Shown piece by piece: positions 13,725-50,354 of a DNA stretch of 64,000 nucleotides. Source of the DNA: Dysosmobacter acutus (lineage in GTDB: Bacteria; Bacillota; Clostridia; Oscillospirales; Oscillospiraceae); NCBI RefSeq assembly GCF_018919205.1, contig NZ_JAHLQN010000001.1, forward strand, positions 930,001 to 994,000, in the 5' to 3' direction. A program made the position numbers and the translations under genes. Positions within the stretch are counted from its first letter, which is position 1, and each line of letters begins with the position of its first letter. The notes beneath the pieces are model-generated. The model searched no databases. It saw nothing but the letters and a program-made list of their open reading frames with translations, and was not told where the DNA came from.

Positions 13725-14267
13725 ATGAAGAAGTGGGTTTGCCCTGTTTGCGGCTATGTACATGAAGGCGATGTTCCCCCCGAGAAGTGCCCCCAGTGCG
13801 GCGTCCCCGGCGCCAAGTTCACCGAGCAGAAGGGTGAGATGAGCTGGGCTGCCGAGCACGTGGTGGGTGTTGCAAAAGACGTTCCCGAGGAGATCAAGGA
13901 GGGTCTGCGGGCCAACTTCAACGGCGAGTGCTCCGAGGTCGGTATGTATCTGGCCATGGCCCGTGTCGCTCACCGCGAGGGCTATCCTGAGATCGGCCTG
14001 TACTGGGAGAAGGCCGCCTATGAAGAGGCTGAGCACGCCGCCAAGTTTGCCGAGCTGTTAGGCGAGGTAGTCACCGACTCCACCAAGAAGAACCTGGAGA
14101 TGCGGGTCGAGGCTGAGAACGGCGCCACCATGGGTAAGTTCGAGCTGGCCAAGAAGGCCAAGGAGCTGAACCTGGATGCGATTCATGACACGGTTCATGA
14201 AATGGCAAGGGATGAGGCCCGACACGGCAAGGCCTTTGAGGGTCTGCTGGCTCGTTACTTCGGCTAA
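13725..14267 (+). CDS. Reverse rubrerythrin (rubredoxin domain first), peroxide reductase
   Basis: 180 residues. An N-terminal rubredoxin-type iron site (CPVCGYVH, then CPQCGVPG) precedes a ferritin-like di-iron domain with ligands in [27 protein letters not shown] and [15 protein letters not shown]. This order is inverted relative to classical rubrerythrin and matches the reverse rubrerythrins that reduce H2O2/O2 with NADH-derived electrons in anaerobes. A long leader carries TATACT at 13616-13621. The 3' end is the integration site of the mobile element: the last codons here are a second version of the sequence at 24088-24156, so the present C-terminus may be partly element-supplied. Confidence 0.92.
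14232..14249 (+). repeat. Left attachment-site copy (attL-like)
   Basis: GCCTTTGAGGGTCTGCTG, coding for AFEGLL in rubrerythrin, differs at one base from the right copy at 24118-24135. The strand-exchange point should lie inside the shared 11 bases GCCTTTGAGGG or just beyond. Confidence 0.65.
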
Positions 14268-14288
14268 TCAAAATACAGCATTTCCAAG

Positions 14289-14323
14289 GGGAAGCAGAAG
14301 CAATTCTGCTTCCTCTTTTTTTG
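14289..14323 (+). terminator. Terminator after rubrerythrin
   Basis: GGAAGCAGAA pairs with TTCTGCTTCC and is followed by TCTTTTTTT. It lies on the element side of the attachment site, so the element restores both the end of the gene and a terminator. Confidence 0.85.
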
Positions 14324-14340
14324 CCCGCCGCCGAGAGCCG

Positions 14341-14416
14341 TGCAACCTAATGTGCAACGCGCTTGTTTTTGCATGTGTGTAATCCTGCAAATGTGCAACT
14401 TCAAAATGTGCAACTC
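14341..14416. repeat. Cluster of ATGTGCAAC repeats near the left end of the element
   Basis: ATGTGCAAC occurs at 14350-14358, 14391-14399 and 14406-14414, with a further TGCAAC at 14341-14346. TGCAAC also occurs at 23931 and 23972 near the right end. Short direct repeats flanking an integrase-dependent att site are typical arm-type integrase binding sites. The rest of the roughly 450-base stretch before the next gene holds a bidirectional hairpin and promoters. Confidence 0.5.
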
Positions 14417-14607
14417 TATCATCAAGTGCTTACAGCACTCAATTTCATCTTAAACGGAATACGCCATCAACTTTTGACTACTTTCTATAACTTCGCGGTA
14501 TAAAACCTCAACATTGTAGTGTCCAGTAGTCACATAGAAGTCCTGCGGCGGCTCGCCTTAAAGCAACCGTATTTTCCGCTCCGCCGCCACCCATATTCTA
14601 CGGTTAA

Positions 14608-14636
14608 AAAGCCTCAAAAAAGAGGCTTTATTTTTC
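14608..14636. terminator. Bidirectional terminator hairpin in the left arm
   Basis: AAAGCCTC-AAAAAA-GAGGCTTT followed by ATTTTTC on the plus strand. On the minus strand the hairpin begins just after a strong minus-strand promoter (TTGGCA, 18 bases, TATAAT at 14644-14673). Confidence 0.7.
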
Positions 14637-14770
14637 TTTTATCATTATACCACGAGGCACAGTTATGTGCCAAGTATAAAATGGAAATTTGTTATACTTA
14701 AGTCAGAAAACAGGGGAACACAAAACCCCAACAAAAACAAAAAATAAATGATTAAAAGGAGATTACTACT

Positions 14771-15211
14771 ATGACTACCAACAAGAACACCATCCGTTAC
14801 ATCGACGAGACCACCGCCCAGGTTACCAAGGCTTTCCAGAAGAACTCTTCCATCTTCGGCACCGACGAATTCAAGCTCTGGCGTGAATACAAGGCCATGT
14901 TCCCCGAGGCTGTGATGGTAACCAAGACCATCAAGAAGAACCCCAACAAGCTGAACATCACCAAGAACATGACCTATGAAAACATGGCTGCTTTCATCCG
15001 CGAGCAGGACGATGCTGCCGAGGTTATGAAGGAGTTCCAGAAGCAGATCAACCTCTCTAAGGTCAAGGCTAACCCCTACCGTGCAGTTCTGGCATGGTTC
15101 AAGAAGAAGTATCCCGATGTCAATGACTACATGAACTACTTCGAGGAACTGGCTGCTAAGAAGTCCGCTGAAAACGATATGTTTGCCGTTCCCGCCGCCG
15201 CAAACTTCTAA
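14771..15211 (+). CDS. Unknown protein, paralogue 1 of a tandem pair
   Basis: 146 residues of unrecognised function. It aligns by eye with the next gene: FGTDEFKLW against YGTPENKLV, TYENMAAFI against TYANMEKHI, LSKVKANPYRAVLAWF against LSKAVASPYKFVADWF. It is basic, soluble and helix-rich. The strong AGGAG site, a TATACT box at 14693-14698 and favoured codons (AAC, AAG, ACC, ATC) suggest high expression. It is the first gene of a three-gene set with the paralogue and a 67-residue protein. Confidence 0.8.
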   Translation: MTTNKNTIRYIDETTAQVTKAFQKNSSIFGTDEFKLWREYKAMFPEAVMVTKTIKKNPNKLNITKNMTYENMAAFIREQDDAAEVMKEFQKQINLSKVKANPYRAVLAWFKKKYPDVNDYMNYFEELAAKKSAENDMFAVPAAANF

Positions 15212-15256
15212 TCCGCCAACAGATACGAATTTGAATTAAGAAAGGAATTTTAAATT

Positions 15257-15694
15257 ATGGCTACTAAGGGTTACAAGATCGACTTCACTAACAACACTCT
15301 GGTTATGAACTACAAGTTTCACTCCGCTTCTCAGGAATACGGCACTCCCGAAAACAAACTGGTCAAGAAAATTCTGAAAGACTTCCCCTCCCTGTCCGTC
15401 GTTGTCAAAGCTGGCCGTGAGGTCAAGACCCCCAGCAAGAACAAGCGTCTGACCTACGCCAACATGGAAAAGCACATCAAGGCTTACGACAATGCAGACG
15501 AGCTGCTGGAAGTGTTTGAAACCGTCAAGGCTCTGTCTAAGGCCGTTGCCAGCCCCTACAAGTTTGTTGCTGACTGGTTCGTTGAGCAGTTCCCCAGCTA
15601 CGACAAAGCCCCTACGTTCAAGGATGGCAAGCTGACCGTGCTGCCCGTTAAGGCACCCGACATCAAGGAATACAAAATCAAGAAGACCGCTTAA
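15257..15694 (+). CDS. Unknown protein, paralogue 2 of a tandem pair
   Basis: 145 residues. A diverged duplicate of the protein encoded just upstream, sharing the (F/Y)GT-x-E-x-KL start, a central basic stretch, TY-x-NM, D-x-A-x-E and LSK-x-x-A-x-PY-x-x-V-x-x-WF. Its C-terminus differs (LPVKAPDIKEYKIKK). No catalytic motif or membrane segment is seen. A nucleic-acid-binding or structural role is possible but only a guess from charge and expression signals. Confidence 0.8.
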   Translation: MATKGYKIDFTNNTLVMNYKFHSASQEYGTPENKLVKKILKDFPSLSVVVKAGREVKTPSKNKRLTYANMEKHIKAYDNADELLEVFETVKALSKAVASPYKFVADWFVEQFPSYDKAPTFKDGKLTVLPVKAPDIKEYKIKKTA

Positions 15695-15716
15695 CTAAGA
15701 AATGGAGGAAAAGAAA

Positions 15717-15920
15717 ATGACTACTACCAAGAGAGAAGCAAGAATTGCCGAGCTGGTGGAGCTGGCACAGGAATGGAACTGCACCTACATGGAGGCACTT
15801 CTGGAAATCTTGTATGAGTTCTACGAAACCGCCGGATTTGAGCGTGAGCGTCTGGATGCCGAGTTCGGCCCCATGTCTGATGATGAGCTGATGGAAGCCT
15901 ATCTGGTCACTTTCCCCTAA
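15717..15920 (+). CDS. Small unknown acidic protein
   Basis: 67 residues, acidic and helical (REARIAELVELAQEWNCTY, then SDDELMEAYLVTF). ATG 15717 is chosen over in-frame ATG 15702, because the GGAGG that would serve as ribosome site lies inside the longer version 8 bases before 15717. It follows the two paralogues at 22 bases and probably shares their transcript. Confidence 0.7.
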   Translation: MTTTKREARIAELVELAQEWNCTYMEALLEILYEFYETAGFERERLDAEFGPMSDDELMEAYLVTFP

Positions 15921-15944
15921 AACCGCCTCTAAAAGTGCCTGATT

Positions 15945-15973
15945 TTGATTTTTTAATTAAAAAATGTTATAAT
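15945..15973 (+). promoter_or_regulatory. Strong sigma-A promoter for the TAG-containing operon
   Basis: TTGATT, 17-base AT-rich spacer, perfect TATAAT. It lies upstream of the genes at 16101-17750 with about 120 bases of leader. Confidence 0.75.
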
Positions 15974-15989
15974 AATTATAGAAAAAGAG

Positions 15990-16073
15990 ATGAAAAGTCA
16001 CTTTTTAGAAGAATCCCCCCAAACGTCTTCCGCACAAATAGAAAGTATAGTTGGAAAACCTTTGGGGGCATGA
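15990..16073 (+). CDS. Possible 27-residue leader peptide
   Basis: An open frame beginning MKSHFLEESPQTSSAQ, preceded by AAAAAGAG, lies in the leader between the strong promoter and the first TAG-containing gene. Within it CCCCCAAA (16016-16023) can pair with TTTGGGGG (16061-16068). It could be a leader peptide, a structured leader, or chance. Confidence 0.3.
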   Translation: MKSHFLEESPQTSSAQIESIVGKPLGA

Positions 16074-16100
16074 AGAAGAAAGTCTGGCACGGAGTAAGAG

Positions 16101-16901
16101 ATGGAACAGTTAGAATGTAGATTCTATTCAAGATAGGAGATTGCCGAAGCCCTTTCGGTTAATCCAAAAGACAGCAAGCATTTTGCAGAAAAAGTGAAAG
16201 CCACTCTTGAGAAATGGGGGTATGAATACGACTACTCCAGAAGCGGAGTAGAGATCACAGGAAAGCCCGATCTACCAGAAGAGAAGTTGAAAGAAATTCT
16301 GATACGAAAGCTGAACCTTGATGTTCAGATCAACGCATACGACTTCGCCTGTTTCCTCTGCGCCTTTACCGACATCGGCAGTTTTGACAGTATGCCGTGG
16401 GACGAAAGAGCAATCCAAATGCAGTTGAAATACGATGTGGATGTCACAGACCGAACCTTGCGGAGCTGGTGCAAAAGGCTGATCGGCAGCGACATCATCC
16501 AGAAGTGTGGAAGAGAAACTTTCTGGAAAACACAGCGGTTCGGGAAAGAAAAATACCGCACGCCTGTTGCCGCCGATGATGATGAAATGGCGCAATACTT
16601 CCAGAAGAAAAGCGAGTATTTGGAGGTGGCAAGGCTGGCTGCCGAAGAAGCAGGAAAAACGGGAAAAGAAGCCGCCGCGTCCGCGTGGGATGCAACCTAC
16701 AAATCCCTCTGGCGTGAGTTCGGTTGCTGTTACTACGCTTGCAGAGGATTGTTGTTCAACGCCATCGGAGAAGACTACATCTTTGAAATCTACGAACTGG
16801 CGCAGGAGATTGCCGCCGCGCCTGTCAGCCTCCCTCCAGACGAAAGAAAGATTAACTCAAAGGAGGACTACCATGAAACATGGTTCAGGAGCAACTTATG
16901 A
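16101..16901 (+). CDS. Unknown, possibly DNA-binding protein with an in-frame TAG at codon 12
   Basis: 267 codons from ATG 16101 (GGAG 7 bases upstream) to TGA. Codon 12 is TAG (16134-16136): the frame reads YSR-TAG-EIAEALSVNPKDSKHFA. Without readthrough, translation could only begin at GTG 16194, which has no ribosome site and would discard the likely N-terminal DNA-binding helix region. A later part (RTLRSWCKRLI) also looks like a recognition helix, so a replication-initiator or regulator role is possible. Glutamine fits the TAG position best. The end overlaps the next gene by 29 bases. No other stop or frameshift occurs in the frame. Confidence 0.6.
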
Positions 16902-17322
16902 AGACCGCGTTTATGCCATGCTGAAACGCGACGGCTGGGCGAAATAGTTTGAACACCCAGGCATTTACGAAATCAGCATCGACGGCCAGACCGTCTATGT
17001 TGGAAAGAGCAAAAATATGCTCCGCCGTCTGGCGTAGCATTGGGTAGGTATCAAAACAGAAAGTGAGCGCAAATACCGCATACTTGCAGAGGCAAAACGG
17101 CACAGGCACGCAGTTGGCTTTTCTGTCCTGTATTATGCCGTAGAGCTGACCCCCAAGCTGATCGAAGAAGAGCTGGGAGAGAAAGAGGGCGAGTTCATCA
17201 GGGAGCTAAAGCCCGTCCTGAACACGCAGATACCCAAGGCCGACAACTGGCGCAGCTACGAAATCAATGAAATTGCAAGCACCATCACTCTGTCTGAGAT
17301 TTTGCAGTAGCAAAATACATGA
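16873..17322 (+). CDS. GIY-YIG-type nuclease-like protein with in-frame TAG codons
   Basis: From ATG 16873 (AGGAGG 6 bases upstream), the frame is open to TGA 17320-17322 except for TAG at codons 25 (16945-16947), 55 (17035-17037) and 146 (17308-17310; this last may be the true stop). The product shows a GIY-YIG core: GIY at 30-32, YVG at 42-44 after the normal 9-residue spacing, then GKSKNMLRR with the expected arginine, and a C-terminal half with EEELGEKEGEFI and KPVLNTQIP. Reading TAG as Gln gives LA-Q-HW, where many relatives have a polar residue before His. It could be a homing-type or element-maintenance nuclease, or a decayed gene. Confidence 0.6.
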
Positions 17323-17397
17323 ATCCAGATGGAGCAGATTTTACATAGATTGAGGGGGACTTCCCTTTGTAAATACCACCATGGAGGTTCATACAGT

Positions 17398-17613
17398 ATG
17401 AATTACAGCAAACTTGAACTGCTTGAAATGCAGATCAGACACACTTAGGATTTGCGGCGCAGCCTTTCCAGCGAGCCGTCCGCAGAAACCCTTGCCGCAT
17501 GGCGTTTAGAAGATGCGCGAAATGAGATCATGCGGAGATACTACGCCCGACAGGAAGCGGGCGCAGAAGAAACACCGCACTTTACCTTTACCAGCGAGGT
17601 GAAGTTGAAGTGA
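17398..17613 (+). CDS. Small unknown protein with an in-frame TAG at codon 17
   Basis: 71 codons from ATG 17398 (GGAGG about 10 bases upstream) to TGA 17611-17613. Codon 17 is TAG (17446-17448): the frame reads MQIRHT-TAG-DLRRSLSS, then ETLAAWRLEDARNEIMRRYY. The helical, charged product would be 71 residues if TAG is read through and 16 if not. The stop overlaps the GTG start of the next gene, so translational coupling would require ribosomes to pass the TAG. Confidence 0.55.
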
Positions 17614-17750
17614 GCGACAAAAAGAAAGACAAAGATAAGAAGAAAAAGAAGAAATCTGTGCTGGAAGCAGAGATTCTATCTTTTATGCAGAAGAGCATGA
17701 AAACTGCTCTCGATTTGGCGTTGGACGATCTTTTTAAGGATTGGAAATAA
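17610..17750 (+). CDS. Small lysine-rich protein
   Basis: 46 residues from GTG 17610, overlapping the preceding TGA. A block of Lys and Asp (KKKDKDKKKKKK) is followed by an amphipathic helix (LEAEILSFMQKSMKTALD). It has no TAG codon. It is the last gene of the operon, directly before a terminator. Function unknown. Confidence 0.55.
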   Translation: MSDKKKDKDKKKKKKSVLEAEILSFMQKSMKTALDLALDDLFKDWK

Positions 17751-17753
17751 CAA

Positions 17754-17795
17754 GAGGCGGAAGCCGTTCTGAAAGGAACGACTTCCGCCTTTTTT
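17754..17795 (+). terminator. Terminator of the TAG-containing operon
   Basis: AGGCGGAAGCCGTTC pairs with GAACGACTTCCGCCT and is followed by TTTTT. About 150 bases without a recognised gene follow, up to the repressor. Confidence 0.85.
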
Positions 17796-17947
17796 CGTTA
17801 TCCTCCGCCTGACGGCAGACTTTTCTTCTGTCGAGAACAGACGCCAAACCCGTCATCCGAAACAAAAATGTCTCTCCGTGGGAGTTTTGCCCACCCGATT
17901 TCGGCAAGGGGCATCTGAAAAATTTTTGTCCCGAAAGGGTAGCCCCG

Positions 17948-18160
17948 TCATTCCGTGTTTTTGACAAACTCGATCAAGTCCCCCGGCTGACAGTCCAAAA
18001 GTAAGCAGAGCGTTTCAAGGGTAGCCCACGACACCATCTGACCGCTTCTCAACTTTTGGAGCATGGCTTCCCCCATGATCTTCTCTTTCCTGATTTTGTT
18101 TGTGTTGTAGCCAGTCTCTTTGAGCATGGCAAGCACATCAACCTTGTACTGCATCGGCAT
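17948..18160 (-). CDS. Phage-type XRE repressor
   Basis: 70 residues of a minimal Cro/C1-type HTH: YKVDVLAMLKETGYNTNKIR, a recognition part GEAMLQKLRSGQMVS and LLDCQPGDLIEFV at the end. ATG 18160 is chosen because GGAGG lies upstream of it on the minus strand; a longer in-frame version would include the ribosome site. It is divergent from the gene at 18429, with three palindromic operators between them, the standard layout of an autoregulated repressor. Confidence 0.8.
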   Translation of the reverse strand: MPMQYKVDVLAMLKETGYNTNKIRKEKIMGEAMLQKLRSGQMVSWATLETLCLLLDCQPGDLIEFVKNTE

Positions 18161-18228
18161 TGTTGTTTCCTCCCTCTGGGGCAAGCCCCGATTTGCAGAC
18201 CTCTTCCATTGTCCTTATTTTAGCACAG

Positions 18229-18323
18229 AATTACACCCATTTCAAGTGTCAATATTACACATAAAACAAGTGTAATATTTGTGCAGTTTGCGAATTGTAT
18301 TACACTCGAAAAAGGTGTATTAT
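18229..18323. promoter_or_regulatory. Three operator palindromes between repressor and divergent gene
   Basis: Inverted repeats of TTACAC/GTGTAA with a constant 9-base spacer: 18231-18251 (imperfect), 18252-18278 (perfect, ATATTACAC and GTGTAATAT), and 18298-18320 (one mismatch). The third lies inside a plus-strand promoter, TTGTAT 18296-18301, 17 bases, TATTAT 18319-18324, so binding there should block transcription of 18429. The first overlaps a minus-strand TTGACA facing the repressor gene. Confidence 0.75.
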
Positions 18324-18428
18324 ATAGACAGTTCAAGGGGGCGCGAAACGCATTCTCCGAGTAGGCAGGACGCGAAAGGAACTCACGCCGCGCTTCAAAA
18401 AAAGATAAAGATTACGGAGGAAACCACA

Positions 18429-18707
18429 ATGACTAAGAACGAAATGATTACCATGATCGAAACCATGAACAACTACGACGATCTGGCTGCCAAGGCGAAA
18501 GCCAAAGCCGATGCCATCCGCGAGGCCATCAAGGAAGAGATGGTTCGGCAGGACACCGAAGAGCTGGTTGCTGGTGCTTACATCGTCCGCTTTACCAGCG
18601 TGATCTCCAACCGCTTCGACAGCACCACCTTTAAGCGTCTGTACGCTGATCTCTATAAGGACTTCACCAAGCCCGTCAGCTCCCGCCGCTTCTCCGTGTC
18701 TTGCTGA
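18429..18707 (+). CDS. Small unknown element protein
   Basis: 92 residues from ATG 18429 (GGAGG upstream). A charged helix (DDLAAKAKAKADAIREAIKE) is followed by a beta-rich end (AYIVRFTSVISNRFDSTTFK). It resembles small phage/ICE proteins of unknown role. It is the first gene under the operator-controlled promoter. A perfect hairpin (18719-18746) without a T-tract follows and may stabilise the mRNA end. Confidence 0.7.
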   Translation: MTKNEMITMIETMNNYDDLAAKAKAKADAIREAIKEEMVRQDTEELVAGAYIVRFTSVISNRFDSTTFKRLYADLYKDFTKPVSSRRFSVSC

Positions 18708-18769
18708 CTGGAAAAACGCTCCACGGGCAACAGAAAGCCCGTGGAGTGAGAAAATAGGAGGATTTGAAG

Positions 18770-19081
18770 ATGTATATTCTGGAGGATTTATGGGAGGGGA
18801 AAATCACCCCCAGTGATAGAGGTTATCGAAAGGGGAGTCCGTATGCCGAACTGGTGCGGCAATCCAACGAAACCGCAGACATCTTTTATAAAGACCTTTC
18901 TGCCGTTGGAAAGAAAGCGTATGAAACCCATTGCGATCAACAAGGGCAGCTTGAAGATGTAAAGGACTGCGACACCTTTATCCGTGGTTTCCGACTTGGG
19001 GCAAGGATGATTTTGGATGTGGTAGGGGACTACGACTCCCCGATGCTCCAAATCAACGAAATGGATACGGCGGAGGACTAA
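18770..19081 (+). CDS. DUF6809-like small protein
   Basis: 103 residues. The layout ILEDLWEGKITPSDRGYRKGS at the N-terminus and FIRGFRLGARMILDVV near the C-terminus matches the DUF6809 proteins common on mobile elements of Clostridia; no biochemical role is known to me. ATG 18770 follows AGGAGG by 8 bases; an in-frame TTG six bases earlier is less likely. Confidence 0.7.
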   Translation: MYILEDLWEGKITPSDRGYRKGSPYAELVRQSNETADIFYKDLSAVGKKAYETHCDQQGQLEDVKDCDTFIRGFRLGARMILDVVGDYDSPMLQINEMDTAED

Positions 19082-19222
19082 CCTCCGCCGCCTCTTCAAA
19101 GTTCTTATAATCTAACAAATACGAACACCAAAAGCCAGACATTTCAAGGCATCGAAGCTGACGCGGCAAACAAACGAACTTGACCGCTGAAAATTACGAA
19201 CTTTTCTCTTCTGGAGGACACC

Positions 19223-19786
19223 ATGAACAAGAAAACAAAGGCTCTCACCACGGAGCAATACAAAGAAATCATCCAGACCATGAAAGAGGGTTTCTGCGGT
19301 TGCCGTCCCAATGAGCGTATCGCAACCGCCCTTGTTCTGGAGGGGAATTTGGGCTTGCGTATCAGCGATATTGTGAAACTCCGCCCCTGTGACATTGTTC
19401 GGGATGGAGACCGCTTCCGCCTTGAAATCGTGGAGCAGAAAACGGGCAAGCGGCGTGTCTTCACCGTCCCGCTGGTAATCGCTCAGTATGTCGAGAACTA
19501 CTGTCTGCGGAACGGTATCGGCAGAGAGGACTTGATTTTCCCCATCACGGAGCGAGCCGTGCAGAAGCAACTTGCCATCGTCTGTGACTATTTAGGCTTT
19601 GAGGGCATCAGCACCCACAGTTTCCGCAAGTGGTATGCCACGGAAATCTACAAAGCTAATGGTTACGACATCGCCCTTGTTCAGCGGCTCTTGCAGCACA
19701 GCTCCGCCGCCGTCACACAGCGTTACATCGGCATTGAGCCGCAGAGGATTGAAGCAGCCATTCAGGGACACGCACAACTCTTGTAA
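19223..19786 (+). CDS. Small tyrosine recombinase (catalytic domain only)
   Basis: 187 residues. Contains the tyrosine-recombinase set: first Arg in GNLGLRISDIV, Lys in the beta-hairpin region (EQKTGKRRVF), HSFRKW (His-x-x-Arg), LLQHSSAAVTQRYIGI with the second His and the nucleophilic Tyr. The arm-binding domain and most of the core-binding domain of a full integrase are absent, so it may resolve dimers, invert a segment or assist excision. The element's main integrase is at 22690-23901. Confidence 0.85.
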   Translation: MNKKTKALTTEQYKEIIQTMKEGFCGCRPNERIATALVLEGNLGLRISDIVKLRPCDIVRDGDRFRLEIVEQKTGKRRVFTVPLVIAQYVENYCLRNGIGREDLIFPITERAVQKQLAIVCDYLGFEGISTHSFRKWYATEIYKANGYDIALVQRLLQHSSAAVTQRYIGIEPQRIEAAIQGHAQLL

Positions 19787-19807
19787 TCTTTTCTTTTGGA
19801 TAGATGA

Positions 19808-19838
19808 ACAGGGAGCCGAAAAATCGGCTCCCTGTTTT
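19808..19838. terminator. Convergent terminator
   Basis: AACAGGGAGCCGA pairs with TCGGCTCCCTGTT between convergent genes, with T-rich flanks. It serves the recombinase and possibly the minus-strand gene. Confidence 0.75.
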
Positions 19839-19846
19839 ACTGAAAA

Positions 19847-21148
19847 TCATCGCTGAATCGAATAATATCGTTTGTATTTGATTGTTACAAGGTTCAAAAC
19901 ACCTGCATCGGTAAGCTCCTTCAAGGCAGCGGCAACAGTCTGTTCGTTGAAGAAACCCAGACTGGAAACATCCGAAGCGAGAATTTCAGATAGTTTCTCC
20001 TTGAGCATTTCATACACTTCAACAATGTCGGAAGCAGGATAGGTTTCAAAGTCACCACTTATGTCTCTTTCATTTGTGAGGAGTGAAAATGCCACTGGAT
20101 TCTTCGAACCCACAGTTACAAATTCAATAAATTTATAAGTAGCAATATAGCGGGCTGCCTTCTGCTTTGCCGTATATCCGCCATTTTCTCTGATGTCATC
20201 TAAGTAAGCTTTCTTTTTTAAGACTTTCTCTCTGTGGTCAGCAGGACTTTCTTCCAACGGATATTTCTCATCAATCTTTGCCTTTTCTGCGGCAATGTTG
20301 CTATTTGCTTTTTCTGTTATCTCTTTTTCAGCATTAACAAAAGATTGTTCTGCCGTATTACGCACAAGGTCATTGGCCGCCATTGTCGCTTCCAATTCCT
20401 GTAACCGTTGGGCAATCTCTTTCTTCCTTTTTCCCTTAAATAACCCCAGTCCAGATTGTTCCTCAACTAATGCTGTTTTCTCTGCCAACATTGTTTCATG
20501 GGAGTTTTTTGCGTGTTCTATCTTGTCTTCCAGTTCTTTCTTTGCCTTTTCAACTTCTTCGCGGAGTTGGGACAGGATTTTCTGCTCTGCCTGCTCGTAT
20601 TCGTTCCGCCGCGCATCTAACACGCTTTTTGATACCGCCTCCCATGCGGCTTGACGACCTTCAAAATCATACTCATCTTTTTCTAAAAGGGCCGCCTCAG
20701 CTTGAAGGATTTGATAATCCTCAATAATTGAATCAGCAACTATCCGCATGGTCTGGGTGCTGATTTCTTTCATTTTAACCGAGTGTGCTTCATTTGCTTT
20801 CGTTTCTTCGTCAGCTGCTCCGCTTTCAATATTGACATACTTTTTGGTAAAGTAATTCCAAGGCACGGAAATACCATATACCGTCAGACGATCTCTCGCT
20901 GCGGCACTCTGCACACCCGCATCAATAGCAAGCTTTTCGGCTTCATCCATGGGATAGGTCATGGTAAGGCCGCAATCTGGGCATCTATATACCAGTTGAG
21001 TTTTATTTTCAATTCCTGCAACAGCTCCACCAGTGCCGAGAACAACCGCACCAATAATTCCTTTTTTGTAATTGTATGATACCCCTCCTGCTTGGCTATC
21101 CTTTACGACATTAGGACTGCCGCAAGCTGCACAACGATAACGAGCCAT
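19847..21148 (-). CDS. Zinc-ribbon, coiled-coil protein of unknown function
   Basis: 433 residues. An N-terminal zinc ribbon (CAACGSPN, then CPDCGLTM) encloses a glycine-rich hydrophobic hairpin (IIGAVVLGTGGAVAG). A long coiled coil follows (about 165-320, with EEVEKAKKELEDKIEHAK), then a C-terminal domain ending in a winged-helix-like LKELTDAGVLNLVTIKYKRY. ATG 21148 is chosen over an upstream in-frame ATG because GGGAAGG is positioned for it. Lower GC than the chromosome. The layout suggests a membrane-associated scaffold or sensor; a defence role is conceivable given the nearby WYL gene but unsupported. Confidence 0.7.
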   Translation of the reverse strand: MARYRCAACGSPNVVKDSQAGGVSYNYKKGIIGAVVLGTGGAVAGIENKTQLVYRCPDCGLTMTYPMDEAEKLAIDAGVQSAAARDRLTVYGISVPWNYFTKKYVNIESGAADEETKANEAHSVKMKEISTQTMRIVADSIIEDYQILQAEAALLEKDEYDFEGRQAAWEAVSKSVLDARRNEYEQAEQKILSQLREEVEKAKKELEDKIEHAKNSHETMLAEKTALVEEQSGLGLFKGKRKKEIAQRLQELEATMAANDLVRNTAEQSFVNAEKEITEKANSNIAAEKAKIDEKYPLEESPADHREKVLKKKAYLDDIRENGGYTAKQKAARYIATYKFIEFVTVGSKNPVAFSLLTNERDISGDFETYPASDIVEVYEMLKEKLSEILASDVSSLGFFNEQTVAAALKELTDAGVLNLVTIKYKRYYSIQR

Positions 21149-21273
21149 TTTCGTAACCTTCCCTCTCTTGTTAGTTGATATCACAGTTGATATTGATATA
21201 GCAATCTTATTGTAGTATATTTCGTTCGTCTTTGTCAATCTATAATGAAATGTAGATTGAGAGGCGAGATGAT

Positions 21274-21456
21274 ATGAGCAATGAAACTTTAAAAATTAAA
21301 CGCCGTGGCGAAGATGGGAACAAGGTCATTACCGTCCGCATAAAAGAAGAGACCCTGACGGCGATTGATAAAGCCGCTGCTGAAAGCAACTATTCCCGAA
21401 ATGAGTTAATAAACATCATTCTCAGCCACGGAATCAAAAATCTTGAAATTGTATAA
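21274..21456 (+). CDS. Ribbon-helix-helix (CopG-like) DNA-binding protein
   Basis: 60 residues. The basic N-terminus and strand VITVRIKEET, then helices LTAIDKAAAESNYSRNELIN and IILSHGIKN, match CopG/Arc-type regulators. Divergent from the zinc-ribbon gene and upstream of the WYL gene, so it may regulate one of them. Confidence 0.75.
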   Translation: MSNETLKIKRRGEDGNKVITVRIKEETLTAIDKAAAESNYSRNELINIILSHGIKNLEIV

Positions 21457-21541
21457 GCATCAGGGGTGGGATATTCCTGCCCTTTTTTCTTTGCCGTGAG
21501 CATGGTATAATGGCGAAAAAGTAATCACGGAGGCGGCAAGC

Positions 21542-22618
21542 ATGGCATCACCAATCAAGAACAGCGACAAGGGCGGCAAGCGTCCCGGCCAGAAGTTCAA
21601 ATCTCTACTGGTATGGCAGTATCTTTTGAAGCACACAGACGATGACCATGCTGCCAGCTCCGAGGCCATCAAGGAGCATTTGCGGGAATACGGCATCACC
21701 GCAGACCGCCATTCCATTGCCCGTGACATTGACGCGCTAAACGAGCTTTTTGCTATCGACGCGGCAGCCGAGATTGATGATCGTGACCGCCTCAACTACG
21801 AAATCATCTACGATACCAGCAAACGAGGTTACAAAGTCGTCTGCCGTCCCTACGACTTTGAAGAACTGCGTCTTCTGGCTGAGTGTGTCCGCGCCTCTAA
21901 GTTCATTTCCAAGAGCCAAGAAGAACATCTGCTGACCACCATTGAAGACCTGTGCAGCGAAAGCCAGATCGAAGAGCTGCACAACGAAGTCTATCTTGTA
22001 GGCCGCAACAAAACCAGTAACAAGCACATCATGCGCTCTATGCTGAAAATCAATCGGGCAATCAAAGAAAAATGCAAAATTAGCTTTAAGTATCTGAAAT
22101 ACACCCTAAATGACCGCTCCACTCAGGTAGCCAGAAGAGGCGGAAAAGACTACATCCGCAGCCCGTACAAGCTGCTTATCAACGACGGCAATTACTATCT
22201 GTTGGCCTACGACAGCGAAAAAGAGGACATGAGAACATACCGCCTTGACCGCATGAAAGACGTAGAGATCAAGCATGAGGCGAGGGATGGGGCTGCCGTC
22301 TATGACAAAATCGACATGAGAACCTATACCCAGCGTGTTTTTTCCATGTTCGGCGGCGAAGATAAATTTGTCAGCATCCGTTTCACCAACGACCTTTTGG
22401 ACACCGCTGTGGAGCGTTTCGGCAACGGAGGAGAGGTTTTCTACCGTCCCGATGACAAAGGACACTTTGTTGTATCTGCCCACGTGGAGATCAGCAAGCA
22501 GTTTTACGCGTGGGTCTGCGGCTTCCACACAAAAGCCAAAATCATCAATCCCCCCGAAGTAGTGGAGGGCATGAAAAACTTCCTCAATGAAATCTCCAAC
22601 AGATACGAAAGTGAATAA
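21542..22618 (+). CDS. WYL-domain transcriptional regulator
   Basis: 358 residues. An N-terminal winged helix (LLVWQYLLKHTDDDHAASSE, ITADRHSIARDIDALN) followed by a WYL domain (about 140-230: KISFKYL, then RSPYKLLINDGNYYLLAYD and the YRLDRMKDVE stretch) and a WCX-type C-terminal extension. WYL proteins sense nucleic acids or nucleotides and are frequent regulators of defence or mobile loci. TATAAT lies at 21506-21511. Confidence 0.88.
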   Translation: MASPIKNSDKGGKRPGQKFKSLLVWQYLLKHTDDDHAASSEAIKEHLREYGITADRHSIARDIDALNELFAIDAAAEIDDRDRLNYEIIYDTSKRGYKVVCRPYDFEELRLLAECVRASKFISKSQEEHLLTTIEDLCSESQIEELHNEVYLVGRNKTSNKHIMRSMLKINRAIKEKCKISFKYLKYTLNDRSTQVARRGGKDYIRSPYKLLINDGNYYLLAYDSEKEDMRTYRLDRMKDVEIKHEARDGAAVYDKIDMRTYTQRVFSMFGGEDKFVSIRFTNDLLDTAVERFGNGGEVFYRPDDKGHFVVSAHVEISKQFYAWVCGFHTKAKIINPPEVVEGMKNFLNEISNRYESE

Positions 22619-22630
22619 AAGATAAAACAA

Positions 22631-22663
22631 TCCTCCAGAAAGTTGATACTTCTGGAGGATTGT
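22631..22663. terminator. Hairpin between WYL and integrase genes
   Basis: AATCCTCCAGAAG/CTTCTGGAGGATT-type inverted repeat between convergent genes, followed by TGTTGT on the plus strand; moderate as a terminator. Confidence 0.6.
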
Positions 22664-22689
22664 TGTCAAAAGTCGATGCCGTAGAGTGA

Positions 22690-23901
22690 TTAAAGCCGAT
22701 TAAGATTATCTTGTAAAATTTCAATACCCGTTTTGGAAACTGCGAGATAATAACGCTGAGTAACATGAATGTGACCATGCCCCATCTGATTGCAAAGCAA
22801 GTGTGTAGGTGTGTTCAGCTCCGCCATCATCGTGCCGTAAGTGTGTCGGAGAAAATGATACTTGAAATTGATGCCCAGCTTGCTTTTTATCTCACGGGAT
22901 GGGTATTTGAAAGAATTGACTGTCTGAATAGTGCCGTCCGGCAGACAATTCACCAAATCTGTGGAGGCAATTTTCTTTCCGTCCAGATCGTCAATAAACC
23001 GCCGCTTCTGTTCGCGTAAGACGGCAAACTTCACTTCATCTTCTGCCCGCCGCCGAGCTTTTTCCTCCAAATGCTCTTTGAGCGTGGGACAGAGGTATAT
23101 TGTCCGTTTGGAGTTGCGCGTTTTGGGAGGAATGAGTTTAATAAGTCCCTCTTGATACTGCATTTGCCTGTCAATGGTTATCGTGCCATTCTCTAAATCC
23201 ACATTCGACCATTTCAGCCCAAAGGCTTCATTGATACGCAGACCGCAATACCGCCCAAGCAAATACGCCGTTTCTGCATTTGTCCCCTTGAAGTAGTCAT
23301 CCAAAAGTGTGAGTTCCTCACGACTGAACGCTATGATGCTGGTATCGTCCTCTGTTTTCATCTTTGGCATCTTGATTTTCGTATCTTTATTAACGCAGAG
23401 TTTGTTATAGATAGCTCCGTCAAGGTAGTTTCGGGAATGAGCTTGACCAAAGATTAGGTAAAACATTTTCAAGAAATTTTCCGTGTATTGATAGGAATAT
23501 TCTGCATCATAATAGAGTTCGGAAAGGTAATCATTGGCCTCTGCCGAGCTGATTTCATCCACAAACCGCTTGCCGAATTTGGAGCAAAGATGATTGTCCC
23601 AAATACTGTCTTGCTTGCGGATTGTCTGGTAGGCTCTGTCTTTCCGCCCGTTTGCGCAGTATTCTTGATAGACTTCCTTTACCGTTTTTCTGACTACGGG
23701 CTTCGGCTTTCTGGCATCCTGCGCTAAAGCAAGGGCGGCTTGCCTTGCCTTTATAGCGTCTTTCTTCGTGCGGAGTGGTGCGCCGAATTCATCTTTGCTC
23801 CCTCTTTTGGAAATTCGCTTTCCATCCGTTGTGAAAGTGTAGCGAAAAGCCCAAAGACCATTTTCCAACTGAAATACACCCACATCATTCTGTCTTCCCA
23901 T
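22690..23901 (-). CDS. int: Tyrosine integrase of the element
   Basis: 403 residues, a full-length site-specific integrase: an N-terminal arm-binding domain (GVFQLENGLWAFRYTF), an SAM-like core-binding region, and a catalytic domain with RYCGLRINEAFGLKW (Arg), HFLRHTYGTMMAE (His-x-x-Arg), and MGHGHIHVTQRYYLA (His and Tyr). It starts about 190 bases from the right attachment copy. It should carry out insertion into and excision from the rubrerythrin 3' end. Confidence 0.93.
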   Translation of the reverse strand: MGRQNDVGVFQLENGLWAFRYTFTTDGKRISKRGSKDEFGAPLRTKKDAIKARQAALALAQDARKPKPVVRKTVKEVYQEYCANGRKDRAYQTIRKQDSIWDNHLCSKFGKRFVDEISSAEANDYLSELYYDAEYSYQYTENFLKMFYLIFGQAHSRNYLDGAIYNKLCVNKDTKIKMPKMKTEDDTSIIAFSREELTLLDDYFKGTNAETAYLLGRYCGLRINEAFGLKWSNVDLENGTITIDRQMQYQEGLIKLIPPKTRNSKRTIYLCPTLKEHLEEKARRRAEDEVKFAVLREQKRRFIDDLDGKKIASTDLVNCLPDGTIQTVNSFKYPSREIKSKLGINFKYHFLRHTYGTMMAELNTPTHLLCNQMGHGHIHVTQRYYLAVSKTGIEILQDNLNRL

Positions 23902-23904
23902 GCT

Positions 23905-24087
23905 GTTGCCTCCTAAAGTGCAAATTTAGGTGCAACATTTTGGGTTGCTATTTGCCAAGACTTACACACTGTGCAACTTTGGCTTACAAAATCTCTTGCC
24001 AAAAGTCGCAGATAATGATACAATTTCCTTAGAAACAAGCTGGAAAGGCTACACTTTAGTCACGAGCGAATGCGAAGTGACTAACAG
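23905..24087. other. Right arm of the element (integrase to attachment site)
   Basis: No gene seen. It holds TGCAAC at 23931-23936 and 23972-23977 and an inverted repeat TAGTCAC/GTGACTA at 24057-24083. These are candidate integrase or excisionase binding sites. Confidence 0.45.
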
Positions 24088-24156
24088 ATGGCCCGCGACG
24101 AAGCGAGACATGGCCGTGCCTTTGAGGGCCTGCTGAAGCGCTATTTCGGCAAATAA
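24088..24156 (+). pseudogene. Displaced 3' end of the rubrerythrin gene
   Basis: Codes for [22 protein letters not shown] then TAA. This matches the last residues of the rubrerythrin at 13725-14267 ([21 protein letters not shown]) but with different codons, so it is not a recent duplication. It is best explained as the original gene end, pushed away when the element inserted and supplied its own version. Confidence 0.8.
24118..24135 (+). repeat. Right attachment-site copy (attR-like)
   Basis: GCCTTTGAGGGCCTGCTG, the counterpart of 14232-14249 with one base different. Confidence 0.65.
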
Positions 24157-50257: not shown

Positions 50258-50354
50258 GGGAGTAGATGGGTGCTGGTGTGCCCCCCGGTCTTCAAAACCG
50301 GTGCAGGTGGTGAAGAGCCGCCCAGGTGGGTTCGATTCCCACATATTCCCGCCA
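50258..50354 (+). tRNA. selC: tRNA-Sec (anticodon UCA)
   Basis: 97 nt with encoded GCCA end. A long acceptor (GGGAGTA pairing with TATTCCC with one G-T), anticodon stem CCGGT/ACCGG around CTTCAAA with anticodon TCA, a long variable arm (GGTGG...CCGCC) and a T arm GTGGG-TTCGATT-CCCAC. Located directly after selB, so selA, selB and selC are together. Confidence 0.95.

Follow-up and report, generated by a model that had tools for sequence, protein, structure and literature searches.

A putative amber-coded gene block inside a standard-code integrative element of Dysosmobacter acutus

The stretch of Dysosmobacter acutus DNA analysed here (64,000 nucleotides, called the window below) carries an integrated element that, almost certainly, contains a block of genes in which UAG is read as glutamine, set within genes that follow the standard code. 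The block comprises ORF1, a GIY-YIG nuclease gene (ORF2) and ORF3. An amber-to-Gln code for these three genes had been proposed in a sequence-only reading of the window and is supported by homologues from other species and genera, which retain in-frame TAG codons and often have Gln at the TAG columns. Beyond that reading, the amber code is confined to one block of a two-code element, a division seen again in islands, plasmids and phages.

The host genome is nearly complete (97.5%, 3.16 Mb, 2 contigs). The insertion site is the 3' end of a rubrerythrin-like gene. An 11-bp direct repeat, GCCTTTGAGGG, flanks the element at 14232 and 24118, and a second, related gene end (at about 24093-24156) marks the far border. 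Judged from this repeat and the second gene end, the borders would lie at 14232 and 24128. The features are as follows (gene families are designated F, loci L and genomes G).

14232 to 24128, no strand: whole integrated element, about 9.9 kb, with ends predicted from a short repeat and a reading by eye
14771 to 15211, plus strand: 145-aa-type gene (F3), no TAG
15257 to 15694, plus strand: second 145-aa-type gene (F3), no TAG
15717 to 15920, plus strand: 67-aa gene (F16), no TAG
15945 to 15973, plus strand: promoter-like site of the amber block, TTGATT-17-TATAAT with TG before the -10, by consensus match alone
16101 to 16901, plus strand: ORF1, 266 aa, winged-helix-like (wHTH, F2), one in-frame TAG (16134)
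16873 to 17322, plus strand: ORF2, GIY-YIG nuclease, in-frame TAG at 16945, 17035 and 17308
17398 to 17613, plus strand: ORF3, 71 aa (F14), in-frame TAG at 17446
17610 to 17750, plus strand: ORF4, 46 aa, Lys-rich (F18), no TAG in the window copy
17752 to 17793, plus strand: terminator-like inverted repeat
17948 to 18184, minus strand: Cro/CI-type HTH regulator (PF13443), divergent, standard code
18429 to 18707, plus strand: 92-aa gene (F4), standard code
18770 to 19081, plus strand: 103-aa gene (F13), standard code
19223 to 19786, plus strand: short tyrosine recombinase (PF00589), standard code
21542 to 22618, plus strand: WYL-type regulator (F6), standard code
22690 to 23901, minus strand: full-length tyrosine integrase, standard code

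On re-reading, the five TAG codons stand in frame at exactly the positions first reported, and no TAA or TGA interrupts ORF1, ORF2 or ORF3. The TAG at 17308 had been regarded as perhaps a true stop; it is probably a sense codon as well. Most close homologous proteins continue past this position as ILQQQNT, and TAG followed by CAA recurs in L079, L080, L081 and L093. The genes had also been described as joined by overlaps, which holds for ORF1/ORF2 and ORF3/ORF4 and fails between ORF2 and ORF3. The supposed strong promoter is the site at 15945-15973, with 10/12 consensus matches and an extended -10, but three such sites occur in the stretch against 1.7 expected. The supposed terminator is present as the inverted repeat at 17752-17793, but a pattern scan reports it on the minus strand only. 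Certain stops are TAA or TGA, as claimed, in 11 other genes listed for the element, and the host gene ybeY does end in TAG. Most element genes were assigned to no family in Pfam and other profile searches. PHROGs and Pfam gave no capsid or terminase match for the window genes compared with them, and no terS was recognised in the element.

The amber codons are conserved between species. The locus of another species of the genus (L053/L079; L079 is a contig of O. valericigenes An860) is 85% identical in DNA over 1.8 kb and keeps all five TAGs; its genes differ from those of the window by many silent changes, and the TAGs are nonetheless retained. Against the nearest relative, dN/dS is 0.115 for ORF1, 0.039 for ORF2 and 0.33 for ORF3, the last value suggesting that ORF3 is only weakly constrained. 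In ORF1 and ORF2 it is low on both sides of the TAGs, and after the second TAG of ORF2 there are 15.5 silent differences to 2.5 changing ones. The integrase has a dN/dS of 0.041 (window against L053/L079). In mononucleotide shuffles of ORF2, 683 of 200,000 have at least two TAGs and no TAA or TGA, and chance alone is an unlikely source of the pattern. Ordinary decay, sequencing error and chance are ruled out by the conservation of TAG in independent assemblies.

In a search of the family, 5 of 300 genomes, from 4 of 106 genera, carried the nuclease. Stops inside the seven matches are TAG, except that two of them each show a single TAA, at which the gene itself ends. Scanning GTDB genomes yielded 40 nuclease loci, of which 26 are close (L079-L104) and 14, more distant, were set aside; the close loci come from Oscillospiraceae, other Clostridia MAGs and one MAG labelled Bacteroidaceae. 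The window and 25 of these loci make up a set of 26 sequences (L103, with a frame broken at the match start, and the too distant L105-L118 were omitted). The 26 nucleases contain 54 TAG, 64 CAG and 46 CAA codons, with at least one TAG in 24; because the other two (L084 and L096) have none, amber codons are not indispensable to the nuclease. Gln is also found in 13 of the 18 TAG columns of the alignment and is missing from five; counting well-filled columns, 12 of 17 TAG columns have Gln compared with 30 of 138 columns overall (P 4e-6). One column consists of 22 Q and 4 TAG and nothing else. The exchange can be read in LA-TAG-HW and LAQHW, IDD-TAG-TVY and IDGQTVY, and NT-TAG-IPK and NTQIPK. The first 130 aligned codons of the 26 loci hold 46 TAG, 0 TAA and 0 TGA. 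Because TAG trades with Gln codons and all 46 stops are TAG, this comparison shows that UAG stands for Gln in the predicted products of the ORF1-nuclease-ORF3 block.

Database homologues were examined for both larger proteins; such entries hide codons, and a Gln in them may stand for CAG, for CAA or for a TAG that the gene caller translated as Gln. Of the 1,708 nuclease homologues the best 120 were inspected, and Q occurs in 95 of these at ORF2 codon 55 and in 22 at codon 25, which is one of the Gln-free TAG columns of the alignment. The window ORF1 contains a single TAG beside 9 Gln codons. At its codon 12, Q is present in 35 of the 60 homologues that start before that codon, followed by E in 5. 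Fourteen of 81 ORF1 clusters begin at residue 32, the same as the window's own entry, which is without its start; this fits a table-11 gene caller meeting the same TAG.

The genes around the nuclease in 31 loci were clustered into families, and families with TAG are separate from families without it. In conserved parts, the ratio of TAG to Gln codons is 56/112 for the nuclease, 7/118 for the wHTH family F2, 8/30 for F9 and 4/9 for F14, in sum 75 TAG to 269 Gln codons. Eight families outside the block (integrase, 145-aa gene, F4, HTH F5, WYL F6, resolvase F7, F10 and F16) have 6 TAG to 777 Gln codons (Fisher 2.5e-34 against the block), and all six precede the probable start of the HTH gene. These counts exclude L119-L122, which are phage records, and L089, a near-duplicate; L083 and L085 are also close to one another. 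Families F8, F11, F12, F13, F15, F17 and F18 were left out of the contrast (3, 0, 1, 2, 0, 1 and 0 TAGs in conserved parts, respectively); both TAGs of F13 precede the start assumed for the window gene. The contrast shows a partition of the element's predicted genes by code. Codon use is not uniform within the block, because TAG is rarer in F2 than in the nuclease (P 3e-9); the nuclease is not significantly TAG-richer than F9. Its TAG density is the highest among well-sampled families, and that of F14, from four loci, is similar.

Related elements occur as islands in the genomes of several Clostridia, both isolates and MAGs, and show the two-code split. Direct repeats flank seven of the nine islands tried, with an integrase beside them; these islands measure 4.4-11.3 kb and several of the repeats are tRNA 3' ends.

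Island L094, 4.4 kb: repeat of 52 bp, tRNA-Arg
Islands L088, 5.3 kb; L096, 5.8 kb; and L098, 6.3 kb: direct repeats
Island L090, 6.7 kb: repeat of 46 bp, tRNA-Lys
Island L091, 7.0 kb: repeat of 48 bp, tRNA-Pro
Island L079, 11.3 kb: repeat of 46 bp, tRNA-Thr

No flanking repeat was found for L092 and L097, both close to contig ends. The smallest island, L094, consists of regulators, F9-F2-nuclease and a convergent integrase. Selected window and island genes gave no match to a capsid family in PHROGs, Pfam or NCBIfam.

Two complete circular plasmids from rat cecum, pRGI00117 (HG796263.1; L385) and pRGI00100 (HG796260.1; L387), show the split as well, with TAG in all 14 block ORFs of the two and in none of the six genes examined outside the blocks. 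In pRGI00117 all eight block ORFs have TAG (14 TAG, 36 Gln codons), and Rep3 and two other genes outside the block have 0 TAG to 19 Gln codons. The plasmid has a relative of the nuclease (32% identity), and one of the block ORFs is an amber-coded terminase small subunit (TerS; phrog_2538, E-value: 7e-29). The sole TAG of its winged-helix ORF, at codon 3, may lie ahead of the real start. In pRGI00100, TAG is found in 6/6 block ORFs (13 to 32 Gln codons), including a TerS homologous to that of pRGI00117, and in 0/3 genes examined outside the block (0 to 18). The plasmids have the amber-coded TerS and an 87-aa gene in common, with an amber-coded HTH among the block genes of both. They resemble the window element in their amber-coded block and two-code layout, and pRGI00117 also in its nuclease relative; they differ in being circular plasmids with no integrase seen. 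In the deposited records the block genes are mostly cut at TAG and annotated as fragments. The plasmid names fit the set described in PMC3913684, although they are not printed in its main text, and the terms 'stop codon' and 'genetic code' do not occur in its accessible text.

The same pair of genes occurs in phages. L120 (13.2 of 27.2 kb seen) has a wHTH gene and the nuclease directly upstream of terS, terL and portal, with 5 TAGs in the nuclease, 10 in terL, 12 in a tail gene of 1,857 codons and 1 in the seen part of portal; terS and the integrase have none. By terminase, its relatives are phages of about 25 kb, both recoded (L143) and unrecoded (L139, L140). In the fragment L122, the wHTH gene (1 TAG) and the nuclease (4 TAGs), together at L122:1531-2535, are amber-coded, and terS, terL, portal and later genes have no TAG; the nuclease lies two genes upstream of terS. 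Genes predicted to encode a wHTH protein and a nuclease of this kind thus co-occur in phages, islands and, farther apart, a plasmid. In a further record, L119 (IMGVR_UViG_3300024268_002441), TAG-free genes resembling tail and lysis genes (by eye) stand next to a convergent integrase and a nuclease that is amber-coded; this arrangement is either an island beside a prophage or part of a prophage.

The product of ORF2 matches PF01541 (24.6 bits, cut-off 22.6) and has the GIY...YIG motif. Residues G30 I31 Y32, Y42 G44, R52, E105 and N117, which we take to have catalytic roles, are invariant in seven nuclease sequences. Its best PDB profile match is T4 endonuclease II (2wsh; E-value: 2.9e-7), and it also matches phrog_1111. 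The PF01541 score above cut-off and the profile match to 2wsh link it to the GIY-YIG nucleases of these types; unlike them, it is amber-coded and has a winged-helix gene as its neighbour, with terS-terL downstream of it in phage records. None of the genes tested gave a convincing match to a defence family (PADLOC best E-value for the nuclease: 0.001).

The reader of UAG was sought among tRNA genes and release factors. The host has RF1 (546 bits). The window has no tRNA with a CUA anticodon, as the sequence-only reading had stated, and the scan of the full genome that it had suggested was also negative (Rfam and ARAGORN; each of the 58 Rfam places coincides with an ARAGORN locus). At window positions 50258-50354 there is a tRNA-Sec gene with anticodon TCA. 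No CUA tRNA is among the 130 called in three carrier genomes, which are drafts of 20-80 contigs (G083, G276 and G360, with 45, 44 and 41; 134 Rfam places), on the loci around 30 nucleases, in 12 viral records or on the two plasmids, where ARAGORN with circular topology found no tRNA at all. Intron and loose settings yielded none at eight loci of viral records and four stretches with weak Rfam hits. Nor was one found in the records searched of the recoded phages L120 and L143, which encode a nuclease of this type or a related terminase; phages of this type could not be tied to Oscillibacter, and no helper phage was found. A DNA pattern for CUA tRNAs, which is partly sensitive (it fits the host's own tRNA-Gln(TTG) and misses its tRNA-Gln(CTG)), had one match in 400 genomes of the family, at a place where ARAGORN finds no tRNA. 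A looser pattern matched in 285 of the 400; four of its loci, taken as a sample and checked, are tRNA-Arg(TCT), and so is an odd match in G445 that had looked like a candidate suppressor.

As no CUA tRNA was found in the genome, the amber code seems not to belong to the host, nor to be provided by the element. Because none was found in host, carriers, plasmids or viral records, UAG suppression should be supplied externally or by an ordinary tRNA used in an unusual way. Outside supply fits recoded phages. For use of an ordinary tRNA there is a weak hint in tRNA-Gln(CUG) (L042, L209, L233, L258), where the top pair of the anticodon stem is a C27.U43 mismatch in G000 and G360 and G.U in G083 and G276 (by eye). 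Of 715 phages predicted to use code 15, 375 carry a Sup-CTA tRNA and nearly half do not (PMC11210395).

The explanation that we favour, with some reserve, is a phage-satellite-type integrative element with two codes, whose block is unlocked by UAG suppression in trans, likely from a recoded helper. The satellite type is suggested by the integrase and direct repeats around seven islands, the lack of a capsid or terminase match among the window genes compared, the position of the nuclease upstream of terS in phage records and the TerS on a related plasmid, and we consider the element probably satellite-like. The model runs as follows. Genes of the quiet state (integrase, HTH and WYL regulators, 145-aa genes) would be kept in the host code. 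In an uninfected cell, translation of the block would end at the first UAG, because the host has RF1 and no UAG-reading tRNA was found. The block would become readable only once UAG suppression is provided in trans, most probably by a helper phage that is itself recoded (code 15); that such a phage supplies the suppressor is our best guess, by a narrow margin over its opposite. The nuclease would then act in replication or packaging of element or helper, a role suggested by its place beside terminase genes in phages, and its target may be helper, host or element DNA. We regard it as evenly balanced whether these elements, in their integrative and plasmid forms, make up a class of code-locked phage satellites of gut Clostridia. 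In such a class the genetic code would serve as a helper-sensing switch for a nuclease/replication/packaging block, translated only if a recoded helper phage or some other source supplies UAG suppression.

It is very improbable that the block is simply dead, its TAGs being clustered CAG-to-TAG mutations. Each TAG is one step from CAG and the host treats TAG as a stop (YbeY); conservation across species rejects this alternative of the sequence-only reading, with five TAGs common to another species, dN/dS of 0.04-0.14 in ORF1 and ORF2, 46 TAG and no TAA or TGA in 26 relatives, and invariant GIY-YIG motif residues. Near-cognate suppression by the host's ordinary tRNA-Gln(CUG), with TAGs acting as expression brakes and little protein made without a helper, would insert the expected residue, Gln. 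The C27.U43 mismatch leaves four anticodon-stem pairs in G000 and G360 (by eye), and 4-bp anticodon stems have been linked to stop readthrough for other tRNAs (PMC13092985). This is nevertheless an unlikely explanation: with as many as four TAGs in a single island nuclease, hardly any full-length protein would result, and YbeY has TAG as its stop. Moreover, the effect of 4-bp stems on wobble concerns a codon base other than the first, and it is at the first that UAG and CAG differ.

The favoured model of suppression in trans also has to be weighed against two readings in which the block serves elsewhere or otherwise. The block could be a passenger, silent in this host and selected only in other cells rich in recoded phage; such phages are known in the gut (PMC9523058), and no suppressor was found in this host. 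We doubt this, given that several Clostridia, isolates as well as MAGs, show the split, that island borders are repeat-marked and that the integrase and regulators are kept TAG-free. Alternatively, the nuclease could be an anti-phage weapon locked by UAG and released by a recoded phage's own suppressor tRNA, in keeping with a TAG density that is the highest of the well-sampled families (56 to 112) and a best PDB profile match to T4 endonuclease II. This seems rather improbable, since the genes tested gave no convincing defence-family match (PADLOC best E-value: 0.001) and TerS and phage-like neighbours on related plasmids suggest hijacking over pure defence.

Stop-codon recoding is known from phages, where the suppressor tRNA often travels with the genes. 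Like code-15 phages (e.g. crAss-like), the element has UAG as Gln at homologues' Gln positions and a host on the standard code. Unlike them, the carriers here are islands and plasmids with no capsid gene or tRNA recognised, no CUA suppressor tRNA was found on the element, and the code boundary lies inside an element of 4-11 kb. Phage-inducible chromosomal islands are characterised by specific attachment sites, exclusive genes, phage-dependent induction, interference and packaging, and a conserved organisation of the replication origin (PMC6092414). The element resembles these satellites in its small integrated form, tyrosine integrase, divergent regulator, attachment-like repeats (direct repeats at 7/9 related islands; 11 bp in the window) and, on related plasmids, TerS; it differs in having no recognised terS in the window, in its second genetic code and in being known here from genes alone. 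Among the best-ranked matches in the open-access literature, no paper on amber-coded satellites or islands was found; in the accessible text of PMC10879173, which mentions the genetic code and suppressor tRNA, satellites are named solely in the reference list.

The recoding described here sits in islands and plasmids where a suppressor was sought without success, which implies a trade in suppressor tRNAs between mobile elements. The code boundary runs through one small element, apparently parting quiet-state from induced genes, and so compact a system allows the idea that recoding gates lytic expression to be tested. Genes of this kind are truncated or lost in standard annotation, as in the database entry of the window ORF1.

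Two minor observations concern the ends of the block. Its leader (window 16015-16068) is almost identical in L053 and can form a hairpin, CCCCCAAA...TTTGGGGG, whose fold is no stronger than that of shuffles (z -1.04). At the other end, an ORF4 relative from a different genome of the genus (L068; G084:C2) has, when read by eye, an in-frame TAG in its Lys-rich stretch.
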